A stretch of DNA of 64,000 bases from Bacteroidetes bacterium RIFCSPLOWO2_12_FULL_35_15 (GTDB taxonomy: Bacteria > Bacteroidota > Bacteroidia > 2-12-FULL-35-15). A program made the translations under genes and the position numbers. Shown here one piece after another: positions 1 through 16,334 of this stretch; the stretch's first letter is position 1; the number at the start of each line of letters is the position of its first letter. The stretch lies in contig MEPB01000060.1 of assembly GCA_001769385.1 (NCBI GenBank), positions 1 through 64,000 on the forward strand, read 5' to 3'. The notes beneath the pieces are model-generated. The model was not told where the DNA came from and did no database searches. It saw only the letters and a program-made list of their open reading frames with translations.

Positions 1-201
1 ACTTTTACAGATGGTTTTTCTGATCAGTTTGGTGGCGATAAAGGTAAAAAGCTAATGAGTAAAAAGTTCAAAGAAATTTTAGTTGCAATTGCAGATAAAC
101 CAATGGAGCTGCAAAAAGACGAACTGGAAAATCATTTTGAGAATTGGCGCGGAACAATCGAACAGGTGGATGATGTCTTGGTGATTGGGGTCAGAGTGTG
201 A
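1..201 (+). CDS. C-terminal end of a SpoIIE-family PP2C phosphatase (partial)
   Basis: Frame 1 is open from the left edge to a TGA at 199-201, giving the last 66 residues of a protein whose start lies outside the window. The piece opens with TFTDGFSDQFGG and ends with DDVLVIGVRV. This matches the end of the SpoIIE/PP2C serine phosphatase domain, in which the aspartate of TDG binds metal and a late DD pair closes the active site. Bacteroidota proteins of this kind usually carry TPR or sensor segments in front; these cannot be seen here. Family call is fairly sure, the signal it handles is unknown. Confidence 0.75.
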   Translation, partial: TFTDGFSDQFGGDKGKKLMSKKFKEILVAIADKPMELQKDELENHFENWRGTIEQVDDVLVIGVRV

Positions 202-399
202 TCTTGATTTTTAATTATTGTTAATAATAGTATATTAATGGCGAGACGCCTAATTAAAAAGGACGTAGCGGGACGCAACGCCCAACAATTAATCCTGTTT
301 TTTGACATGTTACTTTGAACCGGGGGTATTCAATTCGAGTGTTTTACTTTTTTGAAAAACGTATTGAGCATGTGTGAAGGTACTTTCAGCTTACAGCAA
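202..399. repeat. Gene-free stretch with degenerate repeats
   Basis: No gene is seen. Around 240-290 there is a GACGTAGCG/ACGCCCAAC type repeat whose relatives occur at 49948-50005 and 50095-50120. At 331-387 lies one copy of a roughly 57-base repeat (CAATTCGAGTGTTTT, then TTTTTGAAAAAC and TATTGAG) that recurs at 46660-46715 and 46946-47003. The first and third copies sit directly 3' of a minus-strand gene. Confidence 0.6.
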
Positions 400-1242
400 T
401 TACCATCCTGTTACCAATAAATTTCTTGCTGCTTTTATACTGCATTTTTGATACGTTGAATAGGCCGTTGCGGCTCGTGTTCTTACACTTTCAGTGGATT
501 CATTATTGAGATAACCCGTTAACGCATCATGCAAGGTATAGGCTTCCGGACACATCAAGCCGGTTGTCCAAACAAGGGGATTTGCTTTTGTTGATTTTAA
601 GTGAGGGGCAAAATAGCTTTTGCTGATACAGGCTAAAATAATACAATCTCTTTTTTTACCATCCGCATTTTCAAACGATTCAGTCAATTGAAAATCCATT
701 AAACCATCATGTCCGATATAGGCAACAAGCTTTGAATTGCCTGAAATACCAATGCTTGTATTGTTGATACGAATGGTATCTTTTAATTGCCCCGAAGCAC
801 TGTAAAGAAAATCCCGTGTGCATTGTTTTATAAATTGCCCGTCATACGCATCTGCCACTAAATAATAATTTTTTGTTACGTGTTTAAAGATCAATCGTTC
901 AAGACGTATCGAATCCAGTTTTTGAATTTTTAATAATTTCCATTCTTTGCTGTTCTTGAAAAAACTGCGAATCCCATAACCGCAACCCCAGTATAAGTTA
1001 TTGTTTGGATCTTGTCCGTTTCCTATTTTAACCGGAACAGGAACAATGCCCTGGTATTTATTATCACACAAGGCAACAAATACATGAATGGTTTTAGTGA
1101 TGGTATCAAATTGGGTAATATTTTTTTTGTAGCTGCTTGTTGGTTTAATAGTTTCTTCCTGATTTTCAATTTTTTTTATCTGAGACTCACAGCTTGAAAA
1201 GCAAAAAGAAAAGAATAGAATTAGGAAAGGTTGTTTTAACAT
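400..1242 (-). CDS. Predicted lipoprotein with possible caspase/CHAT-like His/Cys dyad
   Basis: This 280-residue protein starts with a lipoprotein signal (hydrophobic LILFFSFCFSSC, lipobox cysteine at residue 18), so it is probably anchored in the periplasm or outer membrane. I do not recognise a named family. The second half contains the pair LVAYIGHDG and IILAC, a hydrophobic strand ending in GH followed about 40 residues later by a strand ending in AC. That arrangement is the hallmark of clan CD peptidases (caspases, gingipains, CHAT). The segment after it (TGLMCPEAYTLHDAL) is well formed and ends in a conserved-looking LLVTGW. The protease reading is inference. It is the last of three minus-strand genes separated by repeated elements, which suggests a mobile or cassette-like context. 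Confidence 0.6.
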   Translation of the reverse strand: MLKQPFLILFFSFCFSSCESQIKKIENQEETIKPTSSYKKNITQFDTITKTIHVFVALCDNKYQGIVPVPVKIGNGQDPNNNLYWGCGYGIRSFFKNSKEWKLLKIQKLDSIRLERLIFKHVTKNYYLVADAYDGQFIKQCTRDFLYSASGQLKDTIRINNTSIGISGNSKLVAYIGHDGLMDFQLTESFENADGKKRDCIILACISKSYFAPHLKSTKANPLVWTTGLMCPEAYTLHDALTGYLNNESTESVRTRAATAYSTYQKCSIKAARNLLVTGW

Positions 1243-1254
1243 GTATTATGTTTT

Positions 1255-1450
1255 TTGCATTAACGAACGAAGCTAAAAGATTGCGGAATTACTTGCACAA
1301 AATTGTCTTAACTGAAAAACTTTATTAAATGTACTGAACTAAATAGCAAATGCAAAATATTTATGCGCGGAACGCACCTTTGAAAATTGCATTTGCGAAT
1401 TGCAGAAACTCCGCATCTTGCTTTACATAGAAGGTAATGTTAGCCACTGG
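1255..1450. repeat. attC-like palindromic element, copy 1
   Basis: The element lies between two minus-strand genes. Its left end (1262-1287) is identical over 26 bases to 2185-2210. Inside are perfect inverted arms GCAAATGCAA and TTGCATTTGC (about 1350-1400), then CAGAAACTCCGCAT, whose TCCGCA pairs with TGCGGA in the left end. It closes with GTTAGC at 1439-1444, seven bases before the stop codon of the neighbouring gene. A terminal AAC/GTT pair, long imperfect palindrome and closeness to a stop codon are features of integron attC sites, but the core does not fit the GTTRRRY consensus exactly, so this stays a hypothesis. Confidence 0.45.
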
Positions 1451-2173
1451 TTAAATGAAATTAATCCCATTCAATGTTATATTCATTGTTTTAAAATCAA
1501 CGTGTTCTAAATTATTTTTTTTGCATGTTTCAATTATTTTTTCTCTTGTTAATAAATCCATTCTCGCCCCAAATAATATTCGTCTTAGATTTTTTGGCTC
1601 AAAACTAACTTTGTCGATATCATTAACTAATATTCTCCACTCTTCTTCCTTTTCCCAAGCTTTTCGTTTAATAGAAAACAATCTTTTTAATTCAGATAAA
1701 GTTAGTTCTTCTGCTATGGGAACTTCATTTGTATACTGGACTTGTACAAGGCAATTTTGAATATTCGGTACATAGCTAAAATCGAATTCTAAACATGCAC
1801 CCTTTGAATTTTCTGCATAATGTGCCCACATAAGCTCATTTTCCCTGTTTTCTGTGAGTGAACAAACTTTTAATGTTCCACCTTTACTCTCTAACAATTC
1901 ATAAAAACTTTTTTGGCAGAATGATTTGTCTGCAAAATCTGCAATAAAAGATTTTGGGATAGTATTGTAAAGTGGATTATTCGAAAAACCTTCTACTACA
2001 TGAGCAGCGGCATTGTTTAACATTCTCCGTTTTAGTTCATCTGAAATTAGAAACAATCCGTCATGCGGATCGTTTAACTTTTTTCTGTCACAACAAAATA
2101 GAGATTTGTCAACAAGCATCTCAATTAAATACTTATTGTCGGGGTGAAATTTATATAGTGATTGTGGTGTCAT
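1451..2173 (-). CDS. DUF2971 family protein
   Basis: The product is 240 residues from the ATG at 2173. A longer reading from a GTG at 2221 would translate the flanking repeat, so it was not used. Family marks are LYKFHPDN near the start, LNDPHDG, VCSLTENRENELMWAHYAENSKG in pieces, then a late WEKEEEWRIL and ILFGARM. These are the usual DUF2971 positions: the LNDP(F/H)D, MWAHY and EWR signatures. The biochemical role of the family is not established to my knowledge; members often occur in mobile or defence-rich regions. Flanking attC-like elements on both sides make this gene look like a single captured unit. Confidence 0.75.
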   Translation of the reverse strand: MTPQSLYKFHPDNKYLIEMLVDKSLFCCDRKKLNDPHDGLFLISDELKRRMLNNAAAHVVEGFSNNPLYNTIPKSFIADFADKSFCQKSFYELLESKGGTLKVCSLTENRENELMWAHYAENSKGACLEFDFSYVPNIQNCLVQVQYTNEVPIAEELTLSELKRLFSIKRKAWEKEEEWRILVNDIDKVSFEPKNLRRILFGARMDLLTREKIIETCKKNNLEHVDFKTMNITLNGINFI

Positions 2174-2175
2174 AA

Positions 2176-2355
2176 CTTGCGCCCAACGAACGAAGCTAAA
2201 AGATTGCGGATTTACTTGCACTCTGCTTTTCCGTTACCACAAATATAAATTAAAAGCACAACCGATCCCTGCAAATGTTTAGAAATAAATTTATACCACT
2301 GTGACAAACATTTGCAAATGCAGGAACTCCGCATTTAGGAGGTGGTGTTAGCTAC
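2176..2355. repeat. attC-like palindromic element, copy 2
   Basis: This repeats the plan of the element at 1255-1450. It begins with GCCCAAC (2181-2187), shares the 26-base block at 2185-2210, has its own perfect inverted arms GCAAATGTTT and AAACATTTGC, then CAGGAACTCCGCAT, and ends with GTTAGC at 2347-2352 overlapping the stop codon of the next gene. The arms differ in sequence between the two copies but pair equally well, which suggests that structure rather than sequence is kept. Confidence 0.45.
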
Positions 2356-3385
2356 AGTACTTTTTTGTCAACTTAGCCACACGTTGTAAACTAAACTTGT
2401 CACCATAAGTATAGCTTTCATGAATTAATTCTGCTATGTAATGGCTAATCAGTCTTGGATCAGGCTTTCTATTATGGATTCTTGTATATATATAGTCAAA
2501 ATTAAATTTGAAGGTCTTCAACATTCTATTTACAACAAGATTTGTCATTTGGTCTACACCGGAAATGATTTGTTGTGGTGTGTTTTTATAAATGATTACA
2601 TTTTCAGTACTTTGAATATCCTTCCTATCAATTGACTTTTCAATGCCAAAAAAATTATTACCTTTTTTTGAAAAAGCAGAGTTGTTATTGAAAAAGAAAA
2701 TGGATAATCCATTTATAAAGAAACTGCGAGGATTTGTTTTTTCGGGTTCAAAAAAAACAAACCTACTATTAGTAACATTGACATTTTCAAAATAACAAAT
2801 AGCAATTTTGTGGTTATTAATTACTTCTTTATTTTGTATAATATTTTGAGGAATTTCCTTTTCAATTGTAGATAAACAAAGATTTAGAATAGTATCCAAT
2901 TTTGATAGTGTGGCTTCATGTATCTTGTAGCCTCTATAATTAGCAACTGCCAATCTCCAAATGAGAGAATAACAAAATAGTTTTGAAATTAAACTGCCAG
3001 TTTCATTTAATATTAATGAATCTCCGTTGTTCCCTGAAGAAAAATGTTTCAATGTGGAGAAAATGTTGGAAGAAAATAACGATTCTATTCGAGTAAATTT
3101 GTCTTCACAAGTTGTACAAAATAAATTATCTACTGCGAAAAAATTACTGTTATTTCTTATTTCTTCATCTGTCATGTCTCGTCCAAGAACTTCATGTATT
3201 TTCTCAGGGAGAAGGTCTCGCCCAAGAAAATAATTTACAAATCCCGGTTTTGACAAGTCGAAAGAAATTTCTTTTTCTGTTCTTTTCTTTTCAGTTGGAG
3301 TAACCATTGATTTTAAAAGAAAAAAAGGAATCAAGTGAGAATTTGTTTTGTCAGCTCGATTTTGTTTACATAGTTTGCATGTCAT
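2348..3385 (-). CDS. Hypothetical protein with CxxC/HNH-like zinc site
   Basis: The 345-residue product opens with CKLCKQNRADKTNSHLIPFF and has a second CxxC in LFCTTCEDKF near residue 93. Two CxxC pairs with an intervening SHLIP histidine are the layout of a treble-clef zinc finger related to HNH nucleases, and similar proteins of unknown function begin with C..C...SHIIPKF. The rest, about 250 residues, is not recognised and lacks signal peptide or membrane segments. A nuclease role is possible but unproven: no clear second catalytic histidine or asparagine was identified. It is transcribed towards the DUF2971 gene, with an attC-like element between. Confidence 0.55.
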   Translation of the reverse strand: MTCKLCKQNRADKTNSHLIPFFLLKSMVTPTEKKRTEKEISFDLSKPGFVNYFLGRDLLPEKIHEVLGRDMTDEEIRNNSNFFAVDNLFCTTCEDKFTRIESLFSSNIFSTLKHFSSGNNGDSLILNETGSLISKLFCYSLIWRLAVANYRGYKIHEATLSKLDTILNLCLSTIEKEIPQNIIQNKEVINNHKIAICYFENVNVTNSRFVFFEPEKTNPRSFFINGLSIFFFNNNSAFSKKGNNFFGIEKSIDRKDIQSTENVIIYKNTPQQIISGVDQMTNLVVNRMLKTFKFNFDYIYTRIHNRKPDPRLISHYIAELIHESYTYGDKFSLQRVAKLTKKYCS

Positions 3386-3439
3386 AGTATTGTAGCTAAC
3401 ATTAATATGAACGCAATTGCGTTTATATCTCGTACTTAA
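3386..3439. other. Junction with possible gene-end remnant
   Basis: Immediately upstream of the minus-strand gene, AGCTAAC (3392-3398) mirrors the GTTAGC of the attC-like elements. It is followed on the plus strand by ATGAACGCAATTGCGTTT, a ten-codon reading frame ending in TAA at 3437-3439 directly before a good terminator. No complete plus-strand gene precedes that terminator. The stretch could be the last codons of a gene whose front was displaced, or chance. Confidence 0.3.
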
Positions 3440-3471
3440 AAAACAGACGAAAACATTACGTCTGTTTTTTT
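3440..3471 (+). terminator. Orphan intrinsic terminator
   Basis: AAAACAGACG and CGTCTGTTTT are perfect arms around a nine-base loop, followed by a T run. It would work on either strand. The flanking genes at 2348-3385 (minus) and 3642-4331 (plus) diverge, so it terminates no visible gene. Downstream, 3480-3641 holds no gene. Confidence 0.7.
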
Positions 3472-3641
3472 ATTAACCTTACCAAAGATAATCCATTAAA
3501 CAACGCACAATAAAATTCAGCCCTGTTTTATATCAGCTTTTTTACTCATGTAGTCAGCTGATTTTTATTAACTTCGTAAAGCAGCATTTCATTCATTTTT
3601 ATGAATGAAAACAACAGAACATTTAGAGTAAAAAATTTAGT

Positions 3642-4331
3642 ATGCTATTAAAAAAAGGAGAAATTCATCTGTATTGTGTTTTATTAAATCCGTCCACCGT
3701 TTTTTTTGAAAAATGCAGAGCTGCTCTTTCTGAAAAGGAGCAGGAACGTATTTCTTATTTTAAATTTCCTTCGGTTCAAAAAAGTTTTATTATTAGTCAG
3801 GGTGCATTGCGACTCCTATTATCAGATTATTTAAATATTGATGCTCCGAAAATTCAAATTAGTAAACACAGTAAAGGAAAACCTTTTACGATAGATGATA
3901 CGGATCTTTGTTTTAATATTTCTAATTCGGGTGGATATGTTGTTTATGCTTTTTCGCGAGCAGGGGAAGTTGGGATTGATATCGAAAAGATCAGAACACT
4001 TCCTGATCTGGATGAATTGATCGAAAAAAATTTTTCCGCAAAAGAAAAAACATTCATTTCAAAAAATAAAGCAGAAAAAGAAAAACGATTTTTCAAATTC
4101 TGGACCGTTAAAGAAGCCTATTTAAAAGCAATAGGTGAAGGTATGCGACTTTCACCCGACAACCTTGAATTTACTTTTGAAAATAACAACTATGAGTTGG
4201 ATGCCATAAAAGGAGTGTTTGAACAGGAAGATTGGTTGTTTACCGATTTTTCTATCGCAACTGATTATGCAGGAACCATTGTATATAAAGATAAACAAAC
4301 AAAAATTTCTGAAATAAAATTTATAAATTAA
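3642..4331 (+). CDS. 4'-phosphopantetheinyl transferase, Sfp type
   Basis: The enzyme moves the phosphopantetheine arm of coenzyme A onto carrier proteins. The 229-residue length is normal for the Sfp/EntD group. Expected motifs appear in order: SKGKPF near residue 80, FNISNSGG, then the magnesium-binding GIDIE near 112, and FWTVKEAYLKAIGEG near 151, where WxxKEA is the second metal and CoA signature. No other fatty-acid or polyketide synthase genes are adjacent, so the carrier target is unknown; it could serve fatty acid synthesis as the only PPTase. The start ATG follows a purine-poor leader, as is usual in this phylum. Confidence 0.9.
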   Translation: MLLKKGEIHLYCVLLNPSTVFFEKCRAALSEKEQERISYFKFPSVQKSFIISQGALRLLLSDYLNIDAPKIQISKHSKGKPFTIDDTDLCFNISNSGGYVVYAFSRAGEVGIDIEKIRTLPDLDELIEKNFSAKEKTFISKNKAEKEKRFFKFWTVKEAYLKAIGEGMRLSPDNLEFTFENNNYELDAIKGVFEQEDWLFTDFSIATDYAGTIVYKDKQTKISEIKFIN

Positions 4332-4344
4332 CTTTGCGATTAAG

Positions 4345-4452
4345 ATGGAAGAAAGCAATAAAACAGGCAGCTTTGACTTTATGGCGGAGCGTATAAACAA
4401 GGCAAATATAAATTTCAAGGCTAAAGTCGATTTAAGTATATCAGGATTTTAA
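4345..4452 (+). CDS. Possible short or truncated ORF (35 aa)
   Basis: A TAACTTTG element ending at about 4337 is followed at once by ATG GAA GAA and a 35-residue frame ending FKAKVDLSISGF at a TAA (4450-4452). A near copy of the same promoter-like stretch (ATAAATTAACTTTGC) occurs again at 4511-4525. The last third of the frame overlaps the left REP repeat. It may be the 5' end of a gene cut off when the transposase module arrived, or a non-coding coincidence. Confidence 0.25.
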   Translation: MEESNKTGSFDFMAERINKANINFKAKVDLSISGF

Positions 4453-4478
4453 CTCCGCCATGAATGGCAGAGTTATTA
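4409..4478 (+). repeat. Left REP-like repeat of the RAYT module
   Basis: This stretch is an imperfect direct copy of 5101-5174. Both contain ATAAATTTCAA, a GGCTAAAG block, an AGGATTT block and a terminal hairpin. Here the hairpin is AACTCCGCCATGAATGGCAG followed by AGTTATTA (4451-4478), with two mismatches in the stem. Confidence 0.7.
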
Positions 4479-4525
4479 GGAACAACAAAATATAGATTGA
4501 CAATAAAATTATAAATTAACTTTGC

Positions 4526-4646
4526 AAAAAGAGTACTTAAAAAAAATACTGAAGCTAACTCCGCCTTTCAAGGCGGAGTGATTGTCAAAAAGAGTACTTA
4601 AAACAATACTGAAGCTAACTCCGCCTTTCAAGGCGGGGCGATTGAG
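4526..4646 (+). repeat. Tandem REP units upstream of the transposase
   Basis: Two head-to-tail units of about 60 bases (4526-4586 and 4587-4646) differ at only a few positions. Each carries the hairpin CTCCGCCTTTCAAGGCGG with its closing bases (4559-4578 and 4619-4638) preceded by GAAGCTAA. A separate perfect palindrome AGGGCTTTAGCCCT follows at 4661-4674, just before the transposase start. Tetranucleotide-guided hairpins of this type are the usual substrates of RAYT proteins. Confidence 0.8.
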
Positions 4647-4688
4647 CAAAATAATATACAAGGGCTTTAGCCCTGAAAACAAGATAAT

Positions 4689-5120
4689 ATGCCTTTTGTA
4701 AAAGTTATGATTCATGCCGTATGGGGAACGAAAAGTCGTTATCCTTTTCTCACAAAAGAAGTTAAGCAAAAAGTGATAAAGCATATCAGGGAAAATGCAC
4801 AAACAAAACAAATTTTTATAGACAGATTGAATGGGCATACTGAACATTTACATTGTTTATTCGGATTGAATGCAGAACTTAGTATTGCTAAAACATTACA
4901 ACTTATAAAAGGAGAATCGGCATTTTGGATTAACAAATATCAACTTACTGAACCAAAGTTTGAATGGGCAGATGAGTATTTTGCTGTATCTGTTAGTGAA
5001 TCGATGTTAGATAAAGTAAGAGCATATATTGACGGGCAGGAAGAACATCATAAAAAAGTAAATTATGCTCAAGAATATGATGAATTTATGAAGAAGTATA
5101 AATTTCAAAATCATGGCTAA
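4689..5120 (+). mobile_element. REP-associated tyrosine transposase (IS200-like Y1, RAYT)
   Basis: The 143-residue protein is a small single-strand DNA transposase of the HUH/Y1 type. The metal-binding pair is GHTEHLHCLF (H50, H53 and H55 region), and the catalytic tyrosine is probably in VRAYIDGQEEHHKK near residue 117, where the downstream glutamine is also typical. It is flanked by several REP hairpins: 4451-4478, 4559-4578, 4619-4638 and 5149-5174. A hairpin formed by ATGGCTAAAGCCAT lies across the stop codon (5113-5126). The reading frame is intact. Whether the element still moves or only seeds REPs is not visible. Confidence 0.85.
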
Positions 5121-5174
5121 AGCCATTTTTTAAAATTAGGATTTATTGCTACGCCATGAATGGCGTAGTTATTA
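5101..5174 (+). repeat. Right REP-like repeat of the RAYT module
   Basis: CTACGCCATGAATGGCGTAG (5149-5168) is a perfect nine-base-pair hairpin followed by TTATTA. It is the right-hand counterpart of 4409-4478 and begins within the transposase coding sequence. Confidence 0.7.
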
Positions 5175-5209
5175 TGCCAGCAAGATATTGATCAAAAAAT
5201 AAAATTTAA

Positions 5210-6091
5210 ATGCGATTCTCATACTATCTCTTTCTCATCATTACAAAGCTCTTCTCCATCATACCATTTTGGTTATTGTATTTTTTCTCTGATTGCCTTT
5301 TTGTTTTATTCTATTATTTATTGCCCTACAGAAAGAAGGTGATCTTCGAAAACATCAGTAATTCTTTTCCGGATAAATCGGAACAGGAAAAAATAAAATT
5401 AATGAAAGGATTTTATAAAAATTTGTGTGATATTATTATGGAAGGTGTGAAAGGTTTTTCTATGAGTAAAGCACAATTGGTAGCACGGTATAAAGTTCTG
5501 AATCCTGAAATAATGGATAGGTATTTCGAAAAGGGACAAGATGTAATTTCAGTAGGCGCTCATTATGCGAATTGGGAATGGGGAATTATTGCTGCACCTA
5601 CTCAAATAAAACATCAGATCATTGGGTTTTATACCACCTTGAGCAATTCCTACATTGATGAATACATGCGGAGCAACAGAAAAAAATTGGGGAGTGAAAT
5701 GGTTGCACAATCGGATGTTCGAAAAGCATTTTCAGGAAAGAAAGAAAAACCTGCCACTTATTTTTTCGGTGCAGATCAAAGTCCGTCAAATTTAAAAGGA
5801 GTGCATTGGATGAACTTTCTAAATCAGGATACTCCCTGTATGAAAGGACATGAATTTTTTGCGAAACATTATAATATGCCTGTGGTTTATTTTGATGTAC
5901 AACGTGTGAAAAGAGGGTATTATACTGTGAAATTAATTCCACTGGTGGAAAATTCTGCAGCAACAAGCTCCGGGGAGATCACAGAAAAGTACATGCGGAC
6001 ATTGGAAGAGATCATCCTGAAAAAGCCTGAAGACTATCTTTGGTCGCACCGTAAATGGAAGCATAAAAGAATAAAATCAGAAATTAATTAA
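5210..6091 (+). CDS. Lysophospholipid/lipid A acyltransferase (LpxL/HtrB family)
   Basis: The family adds a secondary acyl chain to lipid A at the inner membrane. The 293-residue protein has an N-terminal membrane anchor (residues 4-42) and the catalytic HX4E motif as GAHYANWEW near residue 117. Further family marks are YFFGADQSP and a C-terminal WSHRKWKHKR, the usual WxHRRWK end. Length is normal. It stands directly before a long-chain acyl-CoA ligase gene (19 bases apart), so the two are probably cotranscribed. Acyl position and chain length cannot be inferred. Confidence 0.88.
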   Translation: MRFSYYLFLIITKLFSIIPFWLLYFFSDCLFVLFYYLLPYRKKVIFENISNSFPDKSEQEKIKLMKGFYKNLCDIIMEGVKGFSMSKAQLVARYKVLNPEIMDRYFEKGQDVISVGAHYANWEWGIIAAPTQIKHQIIGFYTTLSNSYIDEYMRSNRKKLGSEMVAQSDVRKAFSGKKEKPATYFFGADQSPSNLKGVHWMNFLNQDTPCMKGHEFFAKHYNMPVVYFDVQRVKRGYYTVKLIPLVENSAATSSGEITEKYMRTLEEIILKKPEDYLWSHRKWKHKRIKSEIN

Positions 6092-13518: not shown

Positions 13519-14917
13519 TTTTTTTTATTTTTACTATTTGTGCCATTAATTCGGCTTCCATTACAGGTTTGTTGTTTACGTAAGCGATGCCTTTCATATG
13601 ACAGATACCCCTTCGGATAGGTGATAAAAGATGCAAATCAAAAACAACGGTATCACCTGGAATTACTTTTTGCTTAAATTTTACTCCATCGATTTTCATG
13701 AAATAAGTTAAATAATTTTCAGGATCTGGCACTGTTTTTAAGATCAAAACGCCTCCGGTTTGCGCCATGGCTTCAACCAATAAGACCCCCGGCATTACAG
13801 GGTTTTCCGGGAAGTGTCCTTTAAAAAACTCTTCATTCATGGTTACATTTTTTACTCCAACTACTGATTCTGGAGTAATGTTCATGATCTTGTCAATCAA
13901 TAAAAAAGGCTGGCGATGAGGCAATAATTTTTGAATGTCCATTATGTTAAGGACAGGCTCTTTCGTTAAATCAAAAGTTGGATGTTCATTCTTTTTACTT
14001 CTTTGTTTTTTTATCAGTTCTTTAATTTGTTTTGCAAAGGCAATGTTTCCGGCATGTCCTGGGCGTGCTGCCAAAATATGCATTTTTAAAGGCACTCCCA
14101 CCAAAGCAAGATCTCCAACAATATCAAGTAATTTATGACGTGCGGGTTCGTTAAAGTAATGTAAAGTAGTGTTGTTCAATACTCCTTTTCCTTTAACTTC
14201 CACATCTTCCTTATGAAAAACTTTTTTAAGTTTATTTAATTTTTCTTCTGAAACCTCTTTATCTACCAATACAATGGCATTGTTTAAATCACCGCCTTTT
14301 ATCAGATTATGTTCCAGCAAAGCTTCTAATTCATGCAAAAAAACAAAGGTTCTGCAATTTGCGATCTCCGTTTTAAAATCACTTACTTTATAAATATGCG
14401 CATGTTGAGTTCCTAATACATCTGAATTATAATCCACCATAACAGTAACTCTGAATTCATCCTGAGGTACGGCAAGCATTTCAACATTTTTTATAGGATC
14501 TTCGTAGGAAAGATTTTCCTTCAATTCAAAATAGATGCGTTCGGCATTTTGTTCTATAGCACCTGCTTCTTCCAGTTTTTTTACAAAGGGCATGGAACTG
14601 CCATCCATAATTGGCATTTCCGGACCATCAATTTCCATCAACACATTGTCAATTTCCATCCCAACCAATGCTGCTAATACATGTTCTGTAGTATAAATAC
14701 GTGCTCCATTTTGTTCCAGAGTTGTTCCACGGGCAGTATCAACAACGTTATCAACATCCGCATCAATGATGGGATTATTGGTCAGATCAACTCGTTGAAA
14801 TTTGAAACCATGATTTTCTGGCGCTGGCAAAAATGTTAATGTTGCTTGTTTACCGGTGTGTAAACCTACTCCTGAAATTGTTACTACGTTTTTTATTGTT
14901 CTTTGATGTACGATCAT
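13490..14917 (-). CDS. lpxC/fabZ: Fused UDP-3-O-acyl-GlcNAc deacetylase / (3R)-hydroxyacyl-ACP dehydratase
   Basis: The 475-residue protein joins two enzymes, a fusion typical of Bacteroidota. Residues 1-300 are the zinc deacetylase LpxC, with the zinc histidine in YTTEHVLAAL and HKLLDIVGDL, and the active-site HAARPGHAGN. Residues about 325-470 are FabZ, with LLPHRQPFLLID and the catalytic histidine and glutamate in GHFPENPVMPGVLLVEAMAQ. It directs hydroxyacyl chains to lipid A or to fatty acid elongation. It is cotranscribed with lpxA. The neighbouring lpxD found in many relatives is not between this gene and the HD gene. Confidence 0.97.
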   Translation of the reverse strand: MIVHQRTIKNVVTISGVGLHTGKQATLTFLPAPENHGFKFQRVDLTNNPIIDADVDNVVDTARGTTLEQNGARIYTTEHVLAALVGMEIDNVLMEIDGPEMPIMDGSSMPFVKKLEEAGAIEQNAERIYFELKENLSYEDPIKNVEMLAVPQDEFRVTVMVDYNSDVLGTQHAHIYKVSDFKTEIANCRTFVFLHELEALLEHNLIKGGDLNNAIVLVDKEVSEEKLNKLKKVFHKEDVEVKGKGVLNNTTLHYFNEPARHKLLDIVGDLALVGVPLKMHILAARPGHAGNIAFAKQIKELIKKQRSKKNEHPTFDLTKEPVLNIMDIQKLLPHRQPFLLIDKIMNITPESVVGVKNVTMNEEFFKGHFPENPVMPGVLLVEAMAQTGGVLILKTVPDPENYLTYFMKIDGVKFKQKVIPGDTVVFDLHLLSPIRRGICHMKGIAYVNNKPVMEAELMAQIVKIKKNDPTLLPAS

Positions 14918-15104
14918 TGTTCTTTCTTAAATTGTACGGATGTTTTATGCAATACTATTTCTAAAATATATTTATTATTCCTCGTAATTATTTAAGTCTC
15001 AAATTTATACAAATTATTAATTAGATAGCTATAGAGGAGTATTTTGTTTTGAATAGCTTTTTGTTGATATATTATTTTTTGATTGAGTTTATTTTAATTC
15101 AGAA

Positions 15105-16334
15105 CTATTTAGGATAACACAAATAATATTTTTTTACAGTTTTTGCCAATACCTGAATATTTAATTGGTCCGATGCCTTTGCAATATCAGAAACACTTCC
15201 ATCCTTAAATAAAATATTGATACTGATCTTATCCGCCCGGTATGCATCATTTTCTACATTCCCGGAAAAAACAAAATAATTTACCTGCTTATCATTTAAC
15301 TTGTAAAGCGCTTTTATTTTATTTTTTATTTCTTTTATTTTTTCTTCTTTAAATGGTAAATTCTGTAATTCGATCTTAAATAATTTGCGATTTACCAATT
15401 GTTCACAAAGTTTAGAAAGCACAGCATCTTTATGTTTTGTCCACACTTTTACGGACGTCATGATATCAGAGTCATCTAACAATGCAAATGTTTCTAATAT
15501 TTCAGGTTTTTTTATAAAATCCTGCAACGTGAATTGTTTATATAAAAAAGTTTTTAAGGCCGGGGTGCAAAATAAATCTTCTTTTTTTTGTGCAAGTTCT
15601 TTCGCACGTTTTAAAATATTTACCAATAAATTTTCTGCACTCAATACGGTTTTGTGTAAATATACCTGCCAGTACATGAGTCTGCGGGCAACAATAAATT
15701 TTTCAATGGAATAAATACCTTTTGCTTCCACTGCTAATTGGTCGTTCACAACATTCAGCATAATAATGATCCGGTCAGAACTAACTACACCTTCTGAAAC
15801 ACCGGTAAAAAAACTATCACGTTTCAGGTAGTCTAAGCGGTCCATGTCCAGCTGGCTGGAAACTAATTGATGCAAAAACTTTTTGTGATATTTATTCTGA
15901 AATATTTTGATCGCTAATGTTAATTCTCCTTTAAATTCTGTATTCAACCGATACATGAACAATTCAGAAATAGCTTCATGAGAAATGTTGCTAACAATAC
16001 TATGTTCTAATGCATGTGAAAAAGGTCCATGTCCAATATCATGCAAAAGAATGGCAATGGTCACAGCTTTTGCTTCATCATCAGTGATTTCGTTTCCTTT
16101 GGAGCGGATCACTTCAATGGCTTCACCCATCAAATGCATGGCTCCCATCGCATGATGAAAACGTGTATGCAATGCTCCCGGATAAACTAAATTGGTTAAG
16201 CCCAATTGTTTTATCCTTCGTAAGCGCTGAAAATAGGGGTGTTCTATGAGATCGTAAATTATTTCATAGGGCAGAGATACGAAACCGTAAATTGGATCGT
16301 TAAATATTTTTCGTTTGTTAGAGAAGGAGTTCAT
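15105..16334 (-). CDS. HD-domain phosphohydrolase (dNTPase-like)
   Basis: The 409-residue protein has the H...HD...D metal site of HD hydrolases: TRFHHAMGAMHLM near residue 58 and ILLHDIGHGPFSHALEH near 94. The start NDPIYGFVSLP and the HSIVSNISHE stretch are typical of the SAMHD1/YdhJ-like group, which is linked to dNTP hydrolysis. It is a standard neighbour of the lipid A gene cluster in Bacteroidota. Substrate is inferred only from family. Confidence 0.87.
   Translation of the reverse strand: MNSFSNKRKIFNDPIYGFVSLPYEIIYDLIEHPYFQRLRRIKQLGLTNLVYPGALHTRFHHAMGAMHLMGEAIEVIRSKGNEITDDEAKAVTIAILLHDIGHGPFSHALEHSIVSNISHEAISELFMYRLNTEFKGELTLAIKIFQNKYHKKFLHQLVSSQLDMDRLDYLKRDSFFTGVSEGVVSSDRIIIMLNVVNDQLAVEAKGIYSIEKFIVARRLMYWQVYLHKTVLSAENLLVNILKRAKELAQKKEDLFCTPALKTFLYKQFTLQDFIKKPEILETFALLDDSDIMTSVKVWTKHKDAVLSKLCEQLVNRKLFKIELQNLPFKEEKIKEIKNKIKALYKLNDKQVNYFVFSGNVENDAYRADKISINILFKDGSVSDIAKASDQLNIQVLAKTVKKYYLCYPK

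Follow-up and report, generated by a model that had tools for sequence, protein, structure and literature searches.

Canonical integrons of the Vibrio type, represented by the integrase VchIntIA (2a3v), have one-way cassette arrays, complementary R''/R' boxes and an attI site beside the tyrosine recombinase. The crossover motif has been described as GTTRRRY, cut as G|TT (PMC8876359). A patch-region domain is given as the defining feature of IntI (PMC9668308), and the survey of PMC2426708 is reported to have selected genes by this patch. The I2 helix has been described as the source of the single-strand recombination catalyzed by integrases; it docks the extrahelical bases of attC and is needed for the capture of cassettes (PMC7790495). 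In the passages that deal with it, the same source describes a hairpin of the CTX phage that is recombined by XerC, and thus an I2-less recombinase on a single-strand hairpin, in which the host Xer is hijacked and there is neither a cassette array nor a dedicated recombinase (PMC7790495). One complete integron has been reported in Bacteroidetes, in Salinibacter ruber (PMC9024848).

In this report, we describe a cassette system from Bacteroidetes bacterium RIFCSPLOWO2_12_FULL_35_15 that is integron-like in its working, so far as it is known here from sequence. The locus is best explained as a whole, with a probability of about 0.8, as an integron-like cassette system in which a patchless recombinase acts on folded attC sites and of which the window is a scattered remnant. 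This system shares with canonical integrons the one-way arrays, the complementary R''/R' boxes, the G|TT crossover and the attI beside a tyrosine recombinase. It differs from them in that the recombinase is without the 42-residue patch/I2 block and carries an N-terminal extension that is possibly HARP-like, the extrahelical bases of attC are mostly missing, and the array and its recombinase run in one direction rather than diverging. Its layout can be likened, by description, to the reverse-oriented integrons of Spirochaetota, in which the arrangement of integrase and cassettes is reversed relative to other integrons (PMC9668308). Unlike the CTX phage, it possesses both an array and a recombinase of its own.

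The window is the whole stretch of 64,000 nucleotides that was analyzed (contig C60 of a genome of 110 contigs). The preliminary description had proposed an integron-like cassette structure around three genes, based on two repeated elements. The 26-base identical end, AACGAACGAAGCTAAAAGATTGCGGA, was found as claimed at 1262-1287 and 2185-2210, and its 22-base core, with up to 3 mismatches allowed, was matched at 2 positions of the window, while 100 shuffles gave 0 matches. The ten-base arms, which had been said to be perfect within each copy and to differ between copies, were located at 1346-1355 and 1387-1396 (GCAAATGCAA/TTGCATTTGC) and at 2271-2280 and 2306-2315 (GCAAATGTTT/AAACATTTGC); pairing within each copy is perfect, and the arm sequences of the two copies are unlike each other. 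The TGCGGA/TCCGCA pair is present at 1282-1287/1410-1415 and 2205-2210/2328-2333. The terminal GTTAGC (plus strand) was found just past the stop (1451) of a DUF2971 gene at 1439-1444, and at 2347-2352, where it overlaps the stop (2348) of a gene for 345 residues. All three genes were confirmed to be on the minus strand, and a third GTTAGC junction on that strand (cut 3400|3399) coincides with the start of the first cassette.

When read along the minus strand, each element is composed of R'' GCTAAC at the gene stop, TGCGGAG, an internal hairpin and TCCGCAATCTTTTAGCTTCGTTCG|TT, and the start of the next gene is within ~20 nt of the |TT. The series begins with an attI-like junction, AGATATAAACGCAATTGCGTTCATATTAATG (3400-3430, minus strand), with the first cassette running from 3399. 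The junction contains a 7-bp perfect inverted repeat that ends 10 nt before the cut, and it resembles the attI of three other loci (L118, L122 and L126). Cassette A (2187-3399, minus strand), TTAGCTAC...GTAGCTAAC plus attC, has a start and an end that are complementary over 9 nt, including the G. Its 345-residue gene (2348-3385, minus strand) is without a family match, and its attC (2187-2352, minus strand) has R'' GCTAAC at 2352-2347 and the cut between 2187 and 2186. Cassette B (1264-2186, minus strand), TTGGGCGC...GTGGCTAAC plus attC, has partly complementary ends (3 of 5 scored positions). It carries the gene of the DUF2971 family (240 residues from the ATG; 1451-2173, minus strand) and an attC (1264-1444, minus strand) with R'' GCTAAC at 1444-1439 and the cut between 1264 and 1263. 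Each cassette is thus a promoterless-looking gene with an attC-type site of ~165-180 nt, joined G|TT to G|TT, and the same sites are carried by the array contigs C23, C80, C84 and C70 and by the array head on C93. By these marks, the 345-residue gene and the DUF2971 gene are in mobile gene cassettes, and the integron-like system to which they belong is common across Bacteroidia.

The claim of a cassette structure held for these two genes and was not supported for the third, a lipoprotein-like gene of 280 residues (400-1242, minus strand) that begins 21 nt past the attC cut. Since no recognizable attC follows it, this gene may be resident, or it may form a cassette that lacks a site. No clean empty site for the window cluster was found; in genome G023, identity is 86% over the flank beyond 3557, but the flank on the opposite side is different, and the cassettes are absent.

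Further copies, for which the preliminary description had proposed a search, were found in the genome: with up to 3 mismatches, the right half was identified 50 times, and 0 times in reversed form. At the same threshold, 0 copies were found in 35 genomes of the same genus. Contig C23 is an array throughout, with 11 sites; arrays open C80 (11 exact cores) and C84 (16 exact cores), and an array closes C70. Contigs C52, C18, C94, C32, C35 and C60 have 1-3 sites each, those of C60 being the two of the window. The orientation of the sites is uniform within any one array. Both ends were present in the fetched stretches for 46 of the 50 right halves, 159-175 nt apart, and the cut position has G in 49/50 sites, TT in 50/50, and A as the next base in 48/50. 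The longer ORF was on the sense strand in 39 of 40 cassettes, and identical units were found side by side in three adjacent pairs.

If these units are cassettes, then the first bases, TTRxxxxx, must pair with the last bases of the same unit, xxxxxYAAC, because only those meet in the circle. For 34 unique units, 147 of 170 own-end comparisons at positions 4-8 were found to match, versus 80.7 ± 6.0 when the ends were shuffled among units (maximum of 107 in 20000 shuffles). The match was perfect over 8 nt in 23 of the 34 units, compared with a shuffled mean of 1.6, and neighboring ends in the array as it stands matched in just 127 of 230 cases. Such own-end complementarity is what integron recombination requires, and a dispersed repeat would not predict it.

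An ORF-less cassette of ~275 nt follows the attI on C80 (L070) and recurs there in 4 units with 88-98% identity; a similar start is also found on C93 (L074, 1-400). This cassette might carry a promoter. On C84 (L071), the units at 867-3459 and 13716-15721 are 86% identical over 1.5 kb. Their ORFs appear transposase-like by eye, which suggests insertion sequences inside cassettes.

The search for an integron integrase had a divided outcome. Neither this genome nor any of 36 genomes of the genus and family has a canonical IntI that scores above the cut-off; an array-linked tyrosine recombinase of a patchless kind was found. The best protein with the IntI profile is a 547-residue tyrosine recombinase on C93, with 209 bits in all versus the TIGR02249 cut-off of 265. 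Its assignment as a canonical IntI was rejected, as it is below the cut-off and the patch block is absent. On one strand of C93, the order is recombinase, two small genes, attI-like site, short cassette unit, half attC and contig end. The attI-like site contains two CGAAACTAGTTTCG palindromes followed by the junction CAGATG|TTACGCGC; the short unit ends with GGCGCGTAAC and is followed by a first attC half that resembles the attC of the arrays. The same double palindrome was found on C80 inside the array, together with a remnant of the last residues of the recombinase. From the order on C93 and the remnant on C80, the recombinase and the array head are physically linked, with the assembly breaking in repeats. 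A perfect inverted repeat with arms of at least 6 precedes the cut in 14 of 28 attI-like sites, versus 59 of 1502 random G|TTR positions. By resemblance of sequence, the site beside the recombinase is an attI.

The integron-cassette reading of the preliminary description is therefore supported by the copies, the one-way arrays, the own-end complementarity, and the recombinase with an attI-like site at the head of an array. It has to be corrected in that the recombinase is patchless, with no canonical IntI, and in that the window copies belong to a scattered subfamily with a broken stem signature.

The two small genes between the recombinase and attI on C93 (L074, 670-1403) resemble a HigB/HigA pair. 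An ssb gene was found within 1.2 kb at 10 of 48 patchless loci and at 0 of 9 canonical loci, in three different layouts. It lies between the recombinase and attI in L120 (11676-12037), L118, L122, L123 and L126, and upstream of the recombinase in L074 (3221-3559). The association of ssb with the recombinase is suggestive only.

The distance between the KGxKDR and HxLRH motifs was determined to be 58-66 residues in 56 patchless proteins, versus 100 in 19 of 19 canonical IntI. The block without a counterpart in the patchless recombinases has 42 residues and corresponds to the patch and I2 helix of canonical IntI. In this spacing (59-66 in 7 Xer-type rows from this genome and the genus) and in having no I2, the patchless enzyme is like XerA, XerC and XerD; it differs from them in having an IntI-type SPxDxL C-terminal tail, which is common to the recombinase and IntI, and an attI with cassettes downstream. 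The best PDB match of the recombinase is the Vibrio integron integrase VchIntIA (2a3v, 138.8 bits), which is also the top match with Foldseek. With VIA-align, archaeal Xer/XerA (Z of 22.4 and 21.3) rank above VchIntIA (19.2), and the closeness to IntI over Xer consequently rests on sequence and Foldseek. In a quick tree, which gave long-branch warnings, IntI form one clade (SH-aLRT of 100), and IntI together with the patchless group are apart from the Xer rows of the genome itself (SH-aLRT of 99).

The N-terminal part of the recombinase was modeled as three beta-beta-alpha-beta-beta-alpha units, a pattern that agrees with the description of HARP (PMC4666394). The Pfam HARP family matches this part weakly: with hits accepted at E up to 1, it was found in 15 of 25 members, and the best E was 1e-5. 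Comparison of the model with the HARP (SMARCAL1) structure 4o66 gave a Foldseek E of 0.15 and a VIA Z of 4.7, and the Z values for a MutS domain, XPB and HARP were each below 8; these resemblances are tentative.

The preliminary description had also suggested that the folded shape of the elements is selected. The arms do pair perfectly in each copy, but when each window copy is folded as one hairpin, its advantage over shuffles is weak (z of -1.9 and -0.9). The bottom strands of 28 attC from foreign loci had a median z of -3.35, versus -0.25 for 28 random stretches; 31 intervals had been obtained, and 3 from L099 were dropped because they are inside a repeat-protein gene. In 17 of 17 canonical attC, taken from 3 genomes of one family, the R'' side has 2 or more extra bases, as expected of the extrahelical bases. 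No extra bases were found in the first 22 arm columns of 19 of 26 patchless attC from 11 foreign loci, nor in 20 of 26 attC of a second, independent set that was filtered by arm score alone. A top-strand A facing a top-strand C near the L box, equivalent to a bottom-strand G·T wobble, was found in 26 of 26 patchless attC of the first set; two of the 28 (L102_7063 and L170_6390) had been dropped as having no clear hairpin, with the fold already known. The A/G pair is present in 25 of 26 attC of the second set. In this genome, the A/G pair was found in 36 of 36 scored sites of the big arrays, and A/T in 9 of 9 scored scattered sites, including the two of the window; one further site was unscorable. 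Because A/T replaces the A/G pair in the scattered sites, the window sites are a distinct subfamily that is probably decayed.

The joint absence of I2 and the extrahelical bases fits the exchange of one recognition mode for another. The patchless enzyme might instead act on double-stranded sites in the manner of Xer, with hairpins that are incidental or act in RNA. This is improbable: the protein is indeed Xer-like where I2 would be and the extrahelical bases are absent, but the long arms vary between genomes and yet pair, with the difference in fold given above, the wobble is strand-asymmetric, and the R box complementarity joins ends that are one whole cassette apart.

The proposed recombination of attC by a patchless enzyme is also addressed by recurrence in other genomes. 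A scan of named genomes with five proteins from the genus gave 36 loci, all from Bacteroidota, including the cultured Thermoflexibacter ruber (DSM 9560), in which the contig stops at attI. At many loci, a palindrome comes downstream of the recombinase on the same strand, followed by G|TTR and by a cassette whose ends match and which has an attC; in some cases several follow in series. In a count over 36 loci with at least 700 nt downstream, cassettes were found downstream of the recombinase at 21, whereas the upstream side gave 3 and a Markov model predicts 2.1. For canonical patch-bearing IntI of the phylum, examined by the same method, the cassettes of 4 of 7 were located on the divergent side, and those of 0 of 7 downstream. 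The count over 36 loci applies a 500-nt limit, which misses the more distant cassettes of L074, L095 and L133. It leaves out L119 (no complete ORF), L127, L129 and L132 (tail pattern), and the contigs that duplicate genus loci (L108, L109, L121, L128 and L131). At least one chained attC was found at 10 of 20 further class-level loci; of the 10 without one, 3 are on contigs that end within 0.9 kb. No cassettes were found downstream of the related recombinases L100, L134, L168 and L169, and L101 has a pair on the upstream side only. The family profile matches 229 of 395 genomes of the class at E up to 1e-45; weak cross-hits are part of this number, among them one to a genome with a canonical IntI at 1e-48. 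Among the matches listed, a hand count gave 31 minus-strand versus 3 plus-strand starts within 1.5 kb of the contig start. Contig breaks are therefore located mostly on the downstream side of the recombinase, an effect to be expected of repeats in that position.

A still less probable explanation is that a canonical IntI acting in trans, or the host XerC/D, moves the cassettes, with the patchless recombinase as a passenger. The I2 helix is reported to be necessary for cassette capture (PMC7790495), and patch-bearing canonical IntI are frequent in other parts of the phylum, being found in 105 of 395 genomes. However, no IntI over the cut-off was found in this genome or in the 36 genomes of the genus and family, and among the 44 same-class matches listed, a canonical IntI is present only in G072. 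Patchless recombinases head arrays in many genomes with an attI between, and the attC linked to them are without extrahelical bases, unlike canonical attC.

It is scarcely credible that the elements are nothing more than dispersed repeats, such as a terminator or a family of the REP or MITE kind, next to genes with which they have no connection. In favor of this are the scattered positions of the window copies, the conservation of the 26-base end, which is like that of a repeat end, and the hairpins, which would act in RNA too. Against it, the units are bounded exactly by G|TT, the gene orientation is uniform, an array is headed by a recombinase and attI, and no Rfam family matches above the gathering threshold in window positions 1-6000. 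The ends also match their own unit and not others, a cassette-specific complementarity by which this explanation is refuted.

In the mechanism that we propose for the integron-like system, the bottom strand of attC, single and folded, would be the substrate that the patchless recombinase recombines with attI and with further attC sites, and cassettes would be excised and inserted in the fashion of integrons without the IntI patch and I2 helix. What is recognized would be the hairpin itself. The bottom-strand G·T wobble, which on the top strand is A·C, may serve as the strand mark, and the N-terminal HARP-like domains could perhaps assist as readers of the hairpin. HARP-like domains elsewhere handle branched DNA. 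The window cluster would be a scattered remnant, located at an attI that is either secondary or old, with sites that have lost the wobble and are probably poorly active. Because the patch was found to be absent and the extrahelical bases mostly absent, the system is not classed as a canonical integron. A broader proposal, which we regard as tentative and rather doubtful, is that a separate large branch in Bacteroidia captures cassettes by means of single-stranded attC hairpins and without any I2, with the strand set by the wobble and HARP-like domains as readers, and that it represents either a stage before I2 or an independent solution.

No description of patchless integrons of Bacteroidota was found in the open-access literature of PubMed Central. 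Surveys that select by the patch would miss this system, and this could explain the near absence of integrons from Bacteroidetes (PMC9024848). With a linked recombinase that has no I2, the origin of single-strand recombination becomes directly testable.

In Acinetobacter, two plasmids have tet(X3) and tet(X5), respectively, directly behind a truncated recombinase of the patchless family and an attI-like site (L185, NZ_CP104735.1, 2916-5117; L186, 5001-7073). The recombinase that precedes tet(X3) or tet(X5) has 222 residues and is 68% identical to the patchless family. The attI-like site between it and tet(X) is ATATACGCCATTTGGCGTATAGCCACTTG|TTATG, and tet(X3) is followed by CTACTAACAAGCAGTTTTGCAATAGTGGGG, which resembles a left attC half. 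The start and end of the tet(X3) unit are not complementary, and the unit may thus be a fusion. In the passages of PMC7473080 that deal with it, the gene beside tet(X) is called xerD and no integron reading is given. This arrangement suggests that tet(X) passed through an integron of the patchless type, and through tet(X3) and tet(X5) the patchless cassette system may bear on drug resistance.

A separate feature of the window is found at 4434-5174, where an ORF of 143 residues (4689-5120) is located between inverted palindromic repeats with 61-nt arms (4616-4676/5111-5171). This ORF and its inverted repeats resemble a REP-associated transposase with its repeats.
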